A stretch of DNA of 31,378 nucleotides from a virus: IMG/VR virus record IMGVR_UViG_3300042691_013488, positions 1 through 31,378 of that record; one strand, given 5' to 3'. Made by a program: the position numbers and the translations under genes. The notes under the pieces are model-generated. The model was not told the DNA's origin, did no database searches, and saw only the letters and a list, made by a program, of their open reading frames with translations. Below, in pieces: positions 12,765 to 19,458 of the stretch; the stretch's first letter is position 1, and each line of letters starts with the position of its first letter.

Positions 12765-13400
12765 ATGCTTGGAAGCATCCTAAGCGCAGGAGCGTCACTT
12801 ATTGGCGGCCTTGCGGGTGGTAAAAAGTCTGGCACCGGAACGCAATTAACGCCGTTTCAATCATTGCCTAGCGAGGTGCAGGATACGTATTTAAATACAT
12901 TCCTGCCTGACGTGCAGGCTAACTACGCCAAGGAGTTCAACCCCTTTCCCATGAAGCGCGTGGCAAACCCAATGGATGACCCATTTGGAAACACAGCCGC
13001 TTACGAATGGCAACAGTACAGTGACCAGATGGGCGGTTTGTTTTCCCCGTTTGGCTTACAGGAAGAGAAAAAACCAGAAGCTACAAACCCAGATGAAATC
13101 CCTGCAAGCATCAAGGATGTGCTTAACACGATATTGATGAGTCAGCTTAAACAATCTGGTGCAAATGACTGGATGGGACGCGTGCGCAATGTCAATGACA
13201 GCCCGCAAGATGATTATAATAGAGAGCTAAACGCCATTATTCAGACGCACTCAAACTTTGGTGCTGCTGATGATGTAATGAAGGCCTTAGACCTCCCTAA
13301 GCTCATGGCTGCAAAACCTAGTGAATATAGCAGTAATTTAGAAAAGGCCTCCAAAACCGCATCTGAGGCAATGCGTAAATATCTTCTAAGTGTGAGGTAA
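12765..13400 (+). CDS. Ejection protein candidate (P22 gp7 position)
   Basis: The N-terminus of this 211-residue protein is small and hydrophobic with glycines (LGSILSAGASLIGGLAGG, about 2-19). Such segments are common in internal virion proteins that insert into or cross the host envelope during DNA ejection. The remainder is hydrophilic with Asp/Asn/Pro and then helical near the end. The RBS AAGAGG is followed by ATG at 12765. It is the first of four consecutive genes of this style between the tail tip and the lysis cassette. The assignment is by position and composition. Confidence 0.5.
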   Translation: MLGSILSAGASLIGGLAGGKKSGTGTQLTPFQSLPSEVQDTYLNTFLPDVQANYAKEFNPFPMKRVANPMDDPFGNTAAYEWQQYSDQMGGLFSPFGLQEEKKPEATNPDEIPASIKDVLNTILMSQLKQSGANDWMGRVRNVNDSPQDDYNRELNAIIQTHSNFGAADDVMKALDLPKLMAAKPSEYSSNLEKASKTASEAMRKYLLSVR

Positions 13401-13403
13401 TCA

Positions 13404-14705
13404 ATGTATTGGACACAGCAAAACGGCCAATGGGTTCCGGGGAACGCCTCAAACTGGCAGGCAATGGGGGATGCACCACCCGTCGCAACGGTAACGCCAA
13501 CATATAGCGCACCATCTACCCCATCTTATTCCACCCCTGTTCCAGAACAAAAGCGCGCAACCGACCAGCCAGTTATGGTCAATCCCGGTGCTCCACCACA
13601 GATAGGCTTGCAAGATAACTGGGGGCCAAATATATTTTCGCAAAGCAACCCTCCCCCAAGCTATTCAACGCCTATTGCACAGGCTGGTGCTGCTGTAGCC
13701 CCGCCTGCACCCGCCAGTCAGCCGCAATCTTTATGGAATGTTCAAAGCGCAACAGAGATAGGTCGTAAACTTGGATTGCTTGGCGCAAATGAAATAGCGC
13801 AAGGCGGTTTGTTAAATACCCGCGTGCAGGCATCCGACCCTAAAATGCAAGAAATGTTTAATAAAATTGCTCTATCTATGCAACAAGGACAGCAGCCAGA
13901 CTGGTCTACAATTGGCCTTGGCGGGGTTATGCCTATTGGACAAGAACCTCTTAATCCTTGGGAAAAAGAGGGCCTTTCTGCATTAGCTCAGGGTACAACC
14001 GCACAAAATGAATTACTGCAAAAAGCGAATGATTTATACGCACAGATTAGCCAGCAGCTAAACAAAGCGTCTACGCCAATGTCTGATAGCGATTTTAACG
14101 CTTTGCTTGCAAGGTATCAAAATCCCTATCAACAGCAGGTGGTTAATCAGTCTATTGAATCCATCCGCCGCGATGCAGACAATGCACGCGCAAGGCTAAT
14201 GGCTGGTTCGGCTGCGTTTGGTAGTAGCTCGCAAGACAGGCAATTATCCGAACTTGAACGCAGCACGCAGGATGCAGTAGCACGCGCAACATCTGGATTA
14301 AATTATGAAGGATTCAATAATCTGGTAAGCACTATTGAAAACCGTCAAAACTCAGACCGCAGCGGCGCGTTACAAGCGGCAAGCACTGGATTAGGTGCGG
14401 CTTCTGGCATTGCGAATTTAGGACAAACATTACGCGAAAACACTATTGCGGATATTATGTCTAAGATTGGCGCGGGTGGGTATGTACGCGATTACAACCA
14501 GCAGCTTGCAGATAAAATTAGTGGTGAATATGGCCGTAAAGAGGGGTATGATAGCCAAAAATTGCAGGAGCTTATGTCTTTGCTTAGCGCGTTTAAAGAA
14601 GGTCAAACGACCATTCCAGCGGAACCAAACAGCGCAAGCAATTGGGCAGATAAATTAGGGGCTTTAGGTGGTGGGCTTAACTCATTAGCGGGGTTGTTAA
14701 AATAA
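13404..14705 (+). CDS. Ejection / internal virion protein candidate
   Basis: This 433-residue protein has a Pro/Ser/Thr-rich disordered N-terminus opening MYWTQQNGQWVPGNASNW (about 1-110), followed by a long helical Gln/Ala/Ser-rich region. Around residues 245-295 the sequence SIESIRRDADNARARLMAG, then GSSSQDRQLSELERS, resembles a motif recurring in phage internal virion proteins. The C-terminus has a GLGAASGIANLGQ stretch and a weakly hydrophobic end (GALGGGLNSLAGLLK). The start lies 3 bases after the previous stop and the end overlaps the next start (TAATG), so translation is coupled. The likely role is delivery into the host with the DNA. Confidence 0.5.
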   Translation: MYWTQQNGQWVPGNASNWQAMGDAPPVATVTPTYSAPSTPSYSTPVPEQKRATDQPVMVNPGAPPQIGLQDNWGPNIFSQSNPPPSYSTPIAQAGAAVAPPAPASQPQSLWNVQSATEIGRKLGLLGANEIAQGGLLNTRVQASDPKMQEMFNKIALSMQQGQQPDWSTIGLGGVMPIGQEPLNPWEKEGLSALAQGTTAQNELLQKANDLYAQISQQLNKASTPMSDSDFNALLARYQNPYQQQVVNQSIESIRRDADNARARLMAGSAAFGSSSQDRQLSELERSTQDAVARATSGLNYEGFNNLVSTIENRQNSDRSGALQAASTGLGAASGIANLGQTLRENTIADIMSKIGAGGYVRDYNQQLADKISGEYGRKEGYDSQKLQELMSLLSAFKEGQTTIPAEPNSASNWADKLGALGGGLNSLAGLLK

Positions 14706-15769
14706 TGGCAAGCATAGCAGAAATCATGCAAGGATTTGCACAAGGCGTAAATAGCTACGGGCAAAACGACCCTTATTTTATGGTGCGTCAATCGCAGCGT
14801 ATGGGTGAGCCTATTAATCTAGCGCAAGCACAGCAAATGCTTAGCCAACGCCAAGAGCAACAGCAACAAGCCGCGCTTCAACAGGCATTACCACAAATTG
14901 CAGGCTCTATTGATTACACCGACCCTAACAAAGCACTTGCACAGCTTGTTTCAATGGGGATTGACCAAAGCCTTGCAATTGCGATGGTTAAGAATGCAAT
15001 GGAGCAACAGAAATCACAAGCGCAAACGCAAATGATGCAAGGCGTTATGGGTGATTCCGGCGGTGGCGCAACACTTGATAAACTCAAACAGTTACCCGAT
15101 GAGAAACTGCGTATTTTAGCAAACATGGATTCTCCGTTAGCGCCAGCAGCAAAGGCAATCCTTGACCAAAAAGAGGCCGACCTAAAAGTCGCTAATCAGG
15201 AAGGATTAAAAGACGATAGAGCATTAATTAGAGAGGAAAGAAAACAACTCACCCTTGATAAGGACGTTCAAAACTTTGCTAAGCGATTAGACGATTCTGG
15301 CATGAACGATTTAATGTCTAGTGTGCAAATGTTTAATAATCAAGTGGCTGGTCTTAAGGATTTACCCGGATATGGTCAAACCTACGGACTACCTGATTTT
15401 ATGGTAAGTGAAGAGGGTAAGGGATTACGTCAAACCGTTGCGGCAATTAGAAATAATATATTGAAGGCGCGAAGCGGTGGCGCAGTAACTCCACAAGAAG
15501 CAGAAAGATTTTTAAGCGAGCTTGGTGAGGGTTATCTTAAAGGCGATACCCAGTTATTGCGAGGTGTTGGTAATCTTGAAACAACCCTCAAACAAAAAGT
15601 GCAAAACATCCGCGCAGGGTTTGGCGATGATGTTGTTTCAGAATACACTAAGCGAGGCGGTAAGCTGCTTGGCGAGCCAAACGCAACAGACCTTGACGCG
15701 CAAGCATTGCAAATGGGTGTATCTCAAGATGAGCTAATGGAATATAAACGCATGAAGGGGTTAAAATAA
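14705..15769 (+). CDS. Gln-rich ejection / internal virion protein candidate
   Basis: This 354-residue protein begins with a helical head, then a dense glutamine stretch (QRQEQQQQAALQQALPQI, about 49-66) and further long amphipathic helices rich in Gln, Ala, Asp and Lys. No enzyme motif, signal or clear transmembrane helix is visible. Its composition and place between two similar proteins suggest an internal head protein that is released with DNA. It is coupled at both ends by TAATG overlaps (14705 and 15769). In P22 the equivalent slots hold gp20 and gp16. Confidence 0.5.
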   Translation: MASIAEIMQGFAQGVNSYGQNDPYFMVRQSQRMGEPINLAQAQQMLSQRQEQQQQAALQQALPQIAGSIDYTDPNKALAQLVSMGIDQSLAIAMVKNAMEQQKSQAQTQMMQGVMGDSGGGATLDKLKQLPDEKLRILANMDSPLAPAAKAILDQKEADLKVANQEGLKDDRALIREERKQLTLDKDVQNFAKRLDDSGMNDLMSSVQMFNNQVAGLKDLPGYGQTYGLPDFMVSEEGKGLRQTVAAIRNNILKARSGGAVTPQEAERFLSELGEGYLKGDTQLLRGVGNLETTLKQKVQNIRAGFGDDVVSEYTKRGGKLLGEPNATDLDAQALQMGVSQDELMEYKRMKGLK

Positions 15770-18342
15770 TGCCTTTAAGCCCTGAAAAAATAGCATTACT
15801 TGATAATTTATACGGAGTTCAGGCACCTTCACCACCGCCCCCTGCACCATTTACGCCACCCGCTTCAACAATGACACCAATTGGAAAAATAGAAGAGGGC
15901 AGTTTTCTAAGCGATGTTGATCGCGCATTAGGGCGTGCGACGAGAATGGGTGTGACGGGAGTGGCAAGTATACTTGATTTGCCAAACATGGTTATGCAGG
16001 GCGGTGCTGATATAACATACAGCGGGGGGCGTGCTATTGCTAATGCGCTTGGTGCTGATTTACCACCGCGCCAAGACATAAACCAAACCCTTCCCATGCC
16101 TTCGCGTACTGCTGAAAGATTGTTTGATTACGTCACAAAAGGACAATACACACCGCGTAATAAGCTAGAAAAAGCCGTTGACACAGGCGGTCAGTTTCTT
16201 GCTTCCGGTGGTGGATATGCAAAAGCGGCTAACATACTACCAGAAATAGCAGCTCTTGCCCCTAGAACTGCAACACAGCTTGCAGGGTTTGGAACGGCTG
16301 GATTAGGGCTTGAAGCTGGCAAAGAGATGTTCCCTGACAATCCAGTTGCACAGCTTGGCATGGGCCTATTAGGCGGAATCACACCAGAGGCCACTGTTTC
16401 AGTAGCTAGAAACGCGCCTCGCGTAGCACAAAACTTAATGAGCATGGCAACCGGAGTAAATCCGCAAAAGCTGCAATCCTTTGTTGAAGCAGGGATAACA
16501 CCTAGGCTTGGCGATGTGACGGACACAAACGTCATGAAATCCACGCAAAATGTATTAAAGGAAGTGCCGCTATCATCCGGCGTGATTGTTAAGTCAGAGG
16601 AAAACGCGCTGAAACAAGCAACCAATATTTTAAACGATGCGGGATTATCTAACGCTAAGAGCGCAGCACAGGCCGGACAGACCGTAAGCGAGGGGCTTGG
16701 TAACTATGTCGCAAAAGGCAAGGAAGTAATTGGCAAGCTATACGATAATTTTGATAAGTTTGTCCCAAAAGATACCCTAGTTGAATCGCGTCCTATTGGG
16801 TTTGCCATATCTGAAATAGCTAAAAAGCCTACACCAGAATTGCAATCTATATTTAACAAATCGGAGGCGGGTCGCTTGGTTGGTAATATGATGCGCGATC
16901 TAAACTCAGGAAACGGCAAACTTCCCTATGAAGCAATTAAAAACTACCGCACTTTGATAGGAAACAACCTGCAAGATGTAACGATGCTAAAAACAGCAGA
17001 TAAAGCGGTTTATTCACGCTTATACGGTGCATTGTCTGAAACCATGAAACAAGAAGCGGCAACACGCGGAAAAAGTGCGTTAGATGCGTTTAATCGCGCA
17101 AACGCAGTAAACAAAGGTTTTATTGAAAAGGTTGAAAAGCAAATTGACCCATTGATGCGCCGCGATGATGTGCAAGAGCTGTTTAATAAGGTTCTTACAA
17201 ACTCCAAAATAGGCGGTAAAGCACAAAACGTCATGGGAATGCTCAAACCACAAGACCGTGAAATAGTGCGCGGTTCTCTTATAAAACAAATGGGAGATGA
17301 TGCTGTAAACGAGTTTGACCCTATACGTTTTGCAACAAAGTACAAAGGGTTAGAGCCAGAAGCGCGTGCAGCTTTAAAATCTGGCCTCAAGCCTGAAACT
17401 GCTAAACAGTTTGATGCTGCGATTGATTCGCTTATGCTCATGCGCGACACCAGAAACACTACAAATGCAAGCCGTTCTCTTTACGGTGGATTATCCGCAT
17501 TATCAGGCGTTGGTGCATGGTTTGACCCTATTAGCACAAGCGGGATTTTAGGGCTTGGCAACGTAACCGCTAGACTTTTCACCAATGACAAGTTTATCAA
17601 ATGGCTTGCTTATGCACCTAAGGGGCTTGCGAAAAACCCTGTAAAATACATGCAGAAACTAAATGTTATTGCACCTCAAATAGAGCGCAAGCCTAATATG
17701 GGCGCACCAAAAGCGATAGAGGTGAAACCAATGGCCCCTGTAGCACTTACACCAGAAAAGATAAAGATTTTGGACGATTTGTATTTTAACAACAAAGGTG
17801 CAAACGATGCGAATTCTATTCCTGATAGCCCTACTACTCCCTTTCAAATCAATCAAGGAGAGGAAAACATGACACCACAAATGGAAACCACCATACGCAA
17901 AGCTGAGGGTGAACGGTTTAAGGTTTATAAAGACACCGTTGGCAAGCGTACCGTTGGTGTTGGCTTCAATATGGATAGTCCTAATGCGCGTAAGGTGTGG
18001 GAAACGGCTGGCATCAAGACCAGTTTTGATGATGTGCTAAATGGTAAAACTCCAATTACAAAAGCGGATTCAGATGCGTTACTTCGTGTCACGATGGAAA
18101 CGGCTGAGAAAGATGCGCGCAAGTTAGTTCCAAACTTCGATACACACCCTGAAAACGTGCAAAGCGCAATTATTGAAATGTCATTCCAGCTTGGTAAGCC
18201 AACGCTATCACAATTCAAGCGTACCCTAAACGCTATCAAAAAAGGGCAGTATGAACTTGCTGCTAAGTTTTTGAAGCAATCCAAATACGCCACGCAGACA
18301 CCTAATCGCGTGAACCGTATAGCATCAACTTTAACCGCTTAA
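15769..18342 (+). CDS. Large ejection protein with C-terminal lysozyme domain
   Basis: This 857-residue protein has four visible parts: a short N-terminal motif LSPEKIALLDNLYG (3-16) followed by a proline-rich linker; a Gly/Ala-rich, possibly membrane-active region (about 40-215); a long helical body (about 225-640); and, after a linker, a T4-type GH24 lysozyme (about 707-857) with Glu713, Asp722 and Thr728 spaced exactly as in T4 lysozyme (E-9-D-6-T). It could cut peptidoglycan locally while the ejected proteins cross the envelope. The N-terminal motif is repeated as LTPEKIKILDDLYF (660-673) just before the lysozyme linker. An internal RBS and ATG would also yield the lysozyme alone (see the nested CDS). 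Confidence 0.7.
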   Translation: MPLSPEKIALLDNLYGVQAPSPPPPAPFTPPASTMTPIGKIEEGSFLSDVDRALGRATRMGVTGVASILDLPNMVMQGGADITYSGGRAIANALGADLPPRQDINQTLPMPSRTAERLFDYVTKGQYTPRNKLEKAVDTGGQFLASGGGYAKAANILPEIAALAPRTATQLAGFGTAGLGLEAGKEMFPDNPVAQLGMGLLGGITPEATVSVARNAPRVAQNLMSMATGVNPQKLQSFVEAGITPRLGDVTDTNVMKSTQNVLKEVPLSSGVIVKSEENALKQATNILNDAGLSNAKSAAQAGQTVSEGLGNYVAKGKEVIGKLYDNFDKFVPKDTLVESRPIGFAISEIAKKPTPELQSIFNKSEAGRLVGNMMRDLNSGNGKLPYEAIKNYRTLIGNNLQDVTMLKTADKAVYSRLYGALSETMKQEAATRGKSALDAFNRANAVNKGFIEKVEKQIDPLMRRDDVQELFNKVLTNSKIGGKAQNVMGMLKPQDREIVRGSLIKQMGDDAVNEFDPIRFATKYKGLEPEARAALKSGLKPETAKQFDAAIDSLMLMRDTRNTTNASRSLYGGLSALSGVGAWFDPISTSGILGLGNVTARLFTNDKFIKWLAYAPKGLAKNPVKYMQKLNVIAPQIERKPNMGAPKAIEVKPMAPVALTPEKIKILDDLYFNNKGANDANSIPDSPTTPFQINQGEENMTPQMETTIRKAEGERFKVYKDTVGKRTVGVGFNMDSPNARKVWETAGIKTSFDDVLNGKTPITKADSDALLRVTMETAEKDARKLVPNFDTHPENVQSAIIEMSFQLGKPTLSQFKRTLNAIKKGQYELAAKFLKQSKYATQTPNRVNRIASTLTA
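17855..17863 (+). promoter_or_regulatory. Strong internal ribosome binding site for the nested endolysin
   Basis: The sequence AAGGAGAGG lies five bases before the ATG at 17869, in an A-rich stretch. It encodes residues in a linker (QGEEN), which need not be conserved for folding. It matches the anti-Shine-Dalgarno sequence better than most true gene starts in this window. Confidence 0.6.
17869..18342 (+). CDS. Nested endolysin made by in-frame internal initiation (GH24 lysozyme)
   Basis: Within the 857-residue gene, ATG codon 701 is preceded by a near-ideal Shine-Dalgarno AAGGAGAGG with a 5-base spacer. Translation from it gives a 157-residue protein that is just the lysozyme: Glu13, Asp22 and Thr28 as catalytic triad, then a TVGVGFNMD strand. 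This is close to T4 lysozyme in size (164). The window has a holin candidate and spanin-like genes downstream but no other endolysin, so the lysis system would be incomplete unless this product exists. There is no signal peptide or SAR helix, so it needs a holin for export. The domain is clear; separate translation is inferred. Confidence 0.6.
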   Translation: MTPQMETTIRKAEGERFKVYKDTVGKRTVGVGFNMDSPNARKVWETAGIKTSFDDVLNGKTPITKADSDALLRVTMETAEKDARKLVPNFDTHPENVQSAIIEMSFQLGKPTLSQFKRTLNAIKKGQYELAAKFLKQSKYATQTPNRVNRIASTLTA

Positions 18343-18355
18343 TAAAGGATTAATT

Positions 18356-18601
18356 ATGTCACAATATAAACGAGCTATCTCTCAAGGTACTTTTACTGCT
18401 AATGGCGCGACCAGCGTTGTTATTTCTGATAAAAATTTTAACAGCACACAAACCGGTATTGATTTTTCAATGCGCACCGTTGGTGGTACTCCTGCTGGCC
18501 ATCCTTATGTATTTGCATTTACGAACGGTACAAGTGTTACGGTAAGGGCTGTCGCAGGTGATACGTCTGTTTACAACTATGTAATTTACGCATTTAATTA
18601 A
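18356..18601 (+). CDS. Small beta-rich protein of unknown function
   Basis: This 81-residue protein has alternating Thr/Val/Phe/Gly patterns suggesting a compact beta fold. There are no cysteines, signal or membrane helix. The start at 18356 has AAAGGA seven bases upstream. It resembles the other small beta proteins of this operon (6784 and 9323) in composition though not in sequence. It lies between the ejection genes and the holin candidate and could be a minor virion component. I do not recognise the family. Confidence 0.6.
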   Translation: MSQYKRAISQGTFTANGATSVVISDKNFNSTQTGIDFSMRTVGGTPAGHPYVFAFTNGTSVTVRAVAGDTSVYNYVIYAFN

Positions 18602-18612
18602 TAGGTGCGAAC

Positions 18613-18918
18613 ATGCCTGAGTCTGAAAAAGTCGTTTCAATAGTCAAGCAAGAACTAGAAAACGCCCTATCTATTGCCGACTTACGCGGCGATATTAAAG
18701 TAGTGAAATCTGAACTTGATGGTGTTAGGGAGCAACAGAAATCCCACCACACATCAACACAGGAATCATTCAAAGATTTAGGCGTTAAAATAGACGATCT
18801 AACCGCCGTTATGAACAAGGGCAAGGGGGCTTTTGCCGTTGCTCTAATGGCGGCTGGAACGGTTGGAGCGTTAATCAGTAAGGTGCTTGGCTATTTGTTT
18901 ACCAAAACCATTAACTAA
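18613..18918 (+). CDS. Holin candidate (XhlA-like topology)
   Basis: Residues about 15-65 of this 101-residue protein are helical and charged with coiled-coil character. A single hydrophobic segment, about 73-95 (FAVALMAAGTVGALISKVLG), is followed by a short basic tail. One C-terminal transmembrane helix after a soluble coil is the topology of XhlA-type haemolysin/holin proteins. The position directly between the lysozyme-bearing gene and the spanin-like genes supports a role in timing membrane permeabilisation. The RBS is weak (AGGTG). A membrane-anchored accessory of the next small protein is an alternative. Confidence 0.55.
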   Translation: MPESEKVVSIVKQELENALSIADLRGDIKVVKSELDGVREQQKSHHTSTQESFKDLGVKIDDLTAVMNKGKGAFAVALMAAGTVGALISKVLGYLFTKTIN

Positions 18919-18928
18919 CGAGGATATT

Positions 18929-19072
18929 ATGGAAAACGTATTTGAAATTGTCGGAGCCGTTACGATGATTCTTACCGGACTCTACACACTATCGCTGATT
19001 ATTCCCGGCGATCAGCCAGACAAAACATTAGAAAAGATTCTTGATTTCACCAAGCGATTCAGCAGGAAGTAG
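18929..19072 (+). CDS. Small single-pass membrane protein, lysis cassette
   Basis: I choose the ATG at 18929 (47 residues) because CGAGGA precedes it and the earlier in-frame start lies inside the upstream gene. One transmembrane helix spans about residues 5-24 (FEIVGAVTMILTGLYTLSLI), followed by a PGDQPDKTLEKILDFTKRFS segment. That second segment recurs in small phage membrane proteins next to lysis genes. It may be a second holin or antiholin, or an accessory of the neighbouring coil-TM protein. The function is not shown by sequence. Confidence 0.6.
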   Translation: MENVFEIVGAVTMILTGLYTLSLIIPGDQPDKTLEKILDFTKRFSRK

Positions 19073-19073
19073 T

Positions 19074-19277
19074 ATGGAATGGGCTGTAGCAGGTGCGATT
19101 ATTTCCGCACTAATTGGCTGGGTAGGGTGGATTCTTACCCGCGATTATAGGGAGTATCGCCGCCTTGAAGATGAAAAGCTAAATGATTTTATCAACGCAG
19201 AAAAGGCGCGTCAAAATGAAGCCAAGGAATATGCTGCTCCTCGTGGTAGCGTCAATGACATCATTGATAAGCTGTAG
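19074..19277 (+). CDS. i-spanin candidate (Rz-like)
   Basis: This 67-residue protein starts at the ATG at 19074 with AGGAAG upstream. It has an N-terminal transmembrane helix (about 4-19, AVAGAIISALIGWVGW) followed by a highly charged helix with coiled-coil character (REYRRLEDEKLNDF onwards). This is the inner-membrane spanin layout, though short for the family. The last 62 bases overlap, in another frame, a lipoprotein gene, the hallmark of Rz/Rz1 pairs. The complex would fuse inner and outer membranes at the end of lysis. The small size leaves some doubt. Confidence 0.55.
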   Translation: MEWAVAGAIISALIGWVGWILTRDYREYRRLEDEKLNDFINAEKARQNEAKEYAAPRGSVNDIIDKL

Positions 19278-19458
19278 CCCATCGCCAAGGGTAGCAGGGT
19301 TTTGTCCGTTACCACTAGTAACTGGTTGTGAGGTAAAATCATGGCTCAAAGCACAGGACAAACCTGATTATGTGGAAGATTGGATATTCAGGCTATCTGC
19401 ACAGCAAAAGACGATTCGTGCTAATTGCGGCTATCCTGAGCCTGATTCTTGTAAGTAG
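19216..19458 (+). CDS. o-spanin candidate (Rz1-like lipoprotein)
   Basis: Starting at the ATG at 19216, this 80-residue protein has a lipoprotein signal: MKPR, a hydrophobic core LLLVVASMTSL, then lipobox LISC with the lipidated Cys at residue 20. The mature part has several Pro and Cys residues and a charged helix. The 5' part overlaps the i-spanin gene in a different frame. Expected location is the inner leaflet of the outer membrane, reaching across the periplasm to its partner. An upstream in-frame ATG (19183) would bury the signal behind basic residues and is less likely. Confidence 0.6.
   Translation: MKPRNMLLLVVASMTSLISCSPSPRVAGFCPLPLVTGCEVKSWLKAQDKPDYVEDWIFRLSAQQKTIRANCGYPEPDSCK

Follow-up and report, generated by a model that had tools for sequence, protein, structure and literature searches.

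The cell-wall hydrolases that tailed phages use for entry and for exit are usually treated as distinct genes with distinct histories. T4-like lysozymes have been described in the C-terminal part of large injected proteins, namely gp36 of phiKMV, gp36 of SP6 and the OEP of Pectobacterium phage phiM1 (PMC5380687, PMC11440229), while gp16 of P22 and Sf6 is reported to lack a T7-type hydrolase domain (PMC8954989). Nested endolysins, with an in-frame internal start, their own ribosome-binding site (RBS) and a shared stop codon, are known from mycobacteriophage Ms6 (Lysin384/Lysin241), and from phi2638A, CTP1L and LysIME-EF1 (PMC3111421, PMC9430671, PMC4777826). Finally, P15 of PRD1 is a virion-associated muramidase that also acts as endolysin, together with holin P35 (PMC6356626).

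The stretch of DNA analysed here (the window) is the whole of IMG/VR record IMGVR_UViG_3300042691_013488, with a length of 31,378 bases. By its sequence the phage is an uncultured P22-like podovirus, as marked by a portal protein (phrog_156), a coat protein (phrog_334) and a distant relative of the 'phage stabilization protein'. Candidate ejection genes follow the latter, with starts at positions 12765, 13404, 14705 and 15769, and the last of these carries the features under study:

15769..18342, plus strand: full-length ORF of 857 aa, a fusion of ejection protein and lysozyme, from the open frame and profile matches
15775..15813, plus strand: N-terminal motif LSPEKIALLDNLY, spanning aa 3-15 and recurring in twin form at aa 660-672
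17746..17784, plus strand: second copy of the motif, LTPEKIKILDDLY (aa 660-672), putative C-terminal tail of the ejection protein before the fusion
17785..17868, plus strand: linker (aa 673-700), disordered in the AlphaFold model, which carries the internal RBS
17816, plus strand: recombination junction, with about 99% identity to a related contig (L003) from there on
17855..17863, plus strand: internal Shine-Dalgarno (SD) sequence AAGGAGAGG, five bases (AAAAC) before the ATG at 17869
17869..18342, plus strand: nested T4-type lysozyme of 157 aa, putative endolysin, with E13, D22 and T28 in short-form numbering

The region of residues 711-841 is a T4-type phage lysozyme as judged by profile, catalytic pattern and modelled fold, with predicted muramidase activity. 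It matches PF00959 (Phage_lysozyme) with a score of 40.0 bits, above the gathering cut-off of 22.3, and with E-values of 1.5e-8 in the 857-aa form and 6e-10 in the 157-aa form. The catalytic pattern E713-x8-D722-x5-T728 is intact, and its columns are retained in alignments. This confirms the sequence-only reading in its claim that a protein of 857 residues ends in a T4-type lysozyme. The domain also matches phrog_2083, the 'internal virion lysozyme motif' (1.8e-9), and, sharing its ORF with a predicted injected protein, it is presumably present in the virion. An assembly artefact is unlikely to account for the fusion, since the open frame is also found in a second contig (L002) and in L003, where the DNA upstream differs.

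The 'ejection-type' label of the 857-aa protein derives from gene position and remote homology. The ejection part matches phrog_36512, a family annotated as of unknown function, and a Pan3 protein annotated as ejection protein has 25% identity to the window protein; the resemblance of the N-terminal 680 residues of the long product to ejection proteins is remote. Homologues of residues 41-635 were found in the related contigs L046, L028, L035, L022, L032, L044 and L017; they have 561-688 residues and end before any lysozyme. The score of the twin motif in the window was reached by none of 1000 shuffles, and several homologues also carry a motif at both ends, e.g. LSDTELERIIAED and LPDEELERIIAED in L046, and FSKEELLQELQRR and FSREELEAELQRR in L022. 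As the L046 and L022 proteins end a few residues beyond their own second copy, the second copy in the window is probably the old C-terminus, behind which the lysozyme was appended. The comparison suggests that the lysozyme is probably a module added behind the ancestral tail of the ejection protein.

The end motifs match within one phage and differ between phages (LEPVDFDPF and LEPIDYDPF in L003), and in four of 12 ejection proteins none of 1000 shuffles reached the score. The terminal twin motif may serve for docking to a virion partner that varies along with it; no clear copy was seen in any other protein encoded by the same contig.

The explanation that we consider likely is that one late gene with two start sites supplies both a virion lysozyme and a free endolysin. 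Ribosomes starting at 15769 would make the 857-aa ejection protein, in which a flexible linker at the C-terminal side bears the T4-type lysozyme; as no stop codon intervenes, this full-length protein must form if the ejection gene is translated. Judging from family and position, the long form would be packaged, ejected and used to open the wall locally at entry. Ribosomes starting at 17869, at an SD sequence of its own within the linker, would make a free lysozyme of 157 aa (about 17 kDa), which would accumulate in the cytoplasm and lyse the host together with the downstream membrane and spanin-like products. In evolutionary terms, the lysozyme would have been added behind the ancestral ejection tail, and a sister phage would later have received an unrelated ejection part without loss of the fusion frame.

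The ATG at 17869 is codon 701 and in frame, and the long and short forms share their stop codon. Its pairing energy with the anti-SD sequence is -8.5, whereas assigned gene starts have a median of -5.8 and 451 in-frame internal starts one of -1.5; six of the internal starts equal or exceed this strength. In the long ORFs of the same phage group (78,761 codons), only five in-frame ATGs are equally strong and well-spaced, copies of the codon-701 site included, which gives a chance expectation of about 0.0007 for the stretch of 11 codons in which an endolysin would be expected to start. The strong RBS five bases before codon 701, noticed earlier from the letters, is thereby borne out, with a chance expectation below 0.001. 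In the predicted mRNA fold, 63% of the region of SD and start is unpaired, placing it in the top 10% of in-frame ATGs for openness. Random synonymous recoding of the RBS peptide gives an equal SD strength in 18% of draws, so that codon choice alone is little proof of a selected SD sequence. Three copies of the fusion site are known, i.e. the window and two in viral_contigs (L002 and L003), and no further copies were found in genome_contigs; as the three are about 99% identical in that stretch, conservation of the RBS is uninformative. Substitutions between the window and L002 leave the lysozyme stretch nearly invariant, and its flanks equally so, which looks like a pattern of recombination rather than of selection. 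Among all internal starts in the window, the strongest lies elsewhere, at 27022 on the minus strand: an in-frame ATG (codon 399, 36 codons from the stop) in ORF 26912-28216, with SD sequence AAGGGAGGTT (-11.9).

The position of the internal start fits that of an endolysin gene. The ATG at 17869 lies 12 codons upstream of the catalytic Glu, and stand-alone T4-type lysozymes mostly start 10-18 codons before this residue, most commonly 13 (78 T4-type lysozyme loci). In an AlphaFold model of residues 660-857, pLDDT stays below 50 over residues 668-699 and exceeds 90 once the first lysozyme helix begins, and the best Foldseek matches to the model are to T4 lysozyme (probability 1.00). The onset of the fold at residues 700-703 coincides with the internal start, and the predicted placement of this start therefore agrees both with the fold boundary and with the canonical distance of endolysin starts. 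No well-spaced start with a strong SD sequence could be identified at the domain edge in the control fusions, i.e. Acj61, gp5 of L104, gp5 of L114 and gp36 of phiKMV; ATG 737 of the latter was rejected as a comparable start, its G-run being too far upstream for an SD sequence. Two lysozymes in long ORFs with strong internal starts (L071 and L088) were not counted as fusions: their DNA is GC-rich, and the N-terminal extensions seem to result from reading across adjacent genes out of frame. In L104 (1745-4950) and L114 (1727-4947) the gene for a gp5-type tail lysozyme is directly followed by a separate, similar lysozyme of 162 aa, as if duplicated.

The lysozyme of T4 gp5 is released by proteolysis, and a free lysozyme could in principle also be cut here from the full-length protein within the linker, which is predicted to be disordered. 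Such a release would leave unexplained why a strong, well-spaced SD sequence and an ATG are located at the edge of the fold, and we regard it as highly improbable.

Comparison with L003 shows that the ejection half has been exchanged. This contig represents the same phage across window positions 13767-14603 (99.9% identity), while no DNA match was detected from about 15013 to 17816, i.e. in the 2.8 kb before the junction. From 17816, which is 53 bp upstream of the internal ATG, the two are again 99% identical through the lysozyme to 18936, and once more from 19067. The entire ejection-protein region has thus been replaced by an unrelated one between otherwise near-identical phages, and the L003 ejection protein, of 898 aa and with an essentially unrelated sequence, is joined in frame to the same lysozyme. 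The fusion frame therefore survives before two unrelated ejection proteins. In the absence of selection, however, retention of the frame after a single swap has a one-in-three chance, which counts against our explanation.

These data also bear on the possibility that the fusion is passive, the 157-aa product being the endolysin, the joint resulting from loss of the stop codon of the ejection gene, and the lysozyme of the long form having no role at entry. The internal ATG follows the ancestral tail motif at a distance of 28 residues, and the fusion is restricted to a small group of contigs, ejection protein and lysozyme being separate in relatives, as would be expected in that case. The frame is nevertheless open in three contigs and before two unrelated ejection proteins, and lysozymes are known on the injected proteins of phiKMV (gp36), SP6 (gp36) and phiM1 (PMC5380687, PMC11440229), so that we consider a passive fusion unlikely.

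The lysozyme is directly followed by a series of small genes:

18356..18601, plus strand: protein of 81 aa with a sub-threshold match to K1-lyase_C (E-value 1.7e-4)
18613..18918, plus strand: protein of 101 aa with a C-terminal transmembrane (TM) segment (hydropathy peak 1.89), holin candidate
18929..19072, plus strand: tentative small ORF for a peptide of 47 aa with one TM segment (hydropathy peak 2.12), second holin candidate
19074..19277, plus strand: protein of 67 aa with an N-terminal TM segment, candidate inner-membrane spanin or holin, from hydropathy and matches of its L003 copy
19216..19458, plus strand: lipoprotein of 80 aa with lipobox LISC and a weak match to Phage_lipoprotein, o-spanin candidate overlapping the i-spanin candidate

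Profile searches gave no family above cut-off for the 101-aa protein. The near-identical L003 copy of the 67-aa protein matches phrog_1350 (holin, 6.5e-4) and phrog_1152 (Rz-like spanin, 0.034). TM and spanin-like genes are therefore found directly downstream of the lysozyme, and these genes look like a Gram-negative lysis cassette with the nested ORF as its endolysin.

A close relative of the window (G001, i.e. L006 and L007; 37,172 bases) was included in the search for another endolysin. Its record has been classified as linear. Over 130 bp, however, the two ends overlap with 99% identity (about one difference), and the window sequence spans the end-to-end join, so that it is effectively a complete circular map; despite its class, the relative is probably complete. 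Compared with it, about 5.3 kb is missing from the window, including the terminase genes. Both the window and the relative have a single match to PF00959, and scans with Pfam, PHROGs and NCBIfam recognised no other endolysin in their larger ORFs, in agreement with the earlier statement that no other endolysin gene accompanies the holin and spanin candidates. Among 29 distant MCP-related records, many of which are fragments, a stand-alone PF00959 gene is present in three and the fusion in none.

Alternatively, the lysozyme could serve in the virion only, the SD sequence being a relic or a chance occurrence and the full-length protein the sole product, with lysis effected by this protein or by an unrecognised one. 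Similar lysozyme-tipped injected proteins are indeed known (PMC5380687), and some of the small early proteins lack a family match and could include a lysis protein that escaped recognition, which also weighs against a nested endolysin. This alternative is improbable given the chance level of the start (<0.001), its coincidence with the edge of the fold, the TM and spanin-like genes directly downstream, and the relative in which no other endolysin could be recognised.

All checkable predictions of the nested-endolysin reading turned out favourably, including the in-frame module on an unrelated ejection protein, and we infer that the 157-aa form is very likely made. We lean, by a small degree, towards the wider proposal that this tailed phage has no stand-alone endolysin gene, uses one lysozyme for both entry and lysis by means of two starts, and can exchange its ejection half by recombination while retaining the nested lysozyme and its frame. 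If true, both wall hydrolases would come from one gene and be divided at translation initiation, which would offer a testable route from lysis enzymes to virion enzymes or the reverse. It would also be a warning for annotation, since the endolysin of a phage that seems to have none may be concealed behind an internal start codon of a virion gene.

The open-access literature yielded no description of an ejection-protein gene with an endolysin nested inside it. As the last ejection-protein gene in a P22-like late region, the fusion gene resembles gp16 of P22 and Sf6, from which it differs by the appended lysozyme. With gp36 of phiKMV (phrog_2083), gp36 of SP6 and the OEP of phiM1 it shares a C-terminal lysozyme on a predicted injected protein; however, the annotations of phiKMV and SP6 include a distinct gene for a lysozyme or endolysin, phiKMV gp36 has no strong and suitably spaced internal start at the edge of its domain, and the phage described here is P22-like rather than phiKMV-like. 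The in-frame internal start, own RBS and shared stop codon are as in the nested endolysins of the Ms6 type, in which the long as well as the short product is encoded by an endolysin gene, whereas the long product here is a predicted virion protein. As in PRD1 P15, a virion enzyme and an endolysin would be encoded by one gene, but a single P15 protein is described as fulfilling both functions, whereas the two starts would give two forms. Lysozyme-tipped ejection proteins, nested in-frame endolysins and virion enzymes acting as endolysins are thus each known singly, and what would be new at this locus is their combination.
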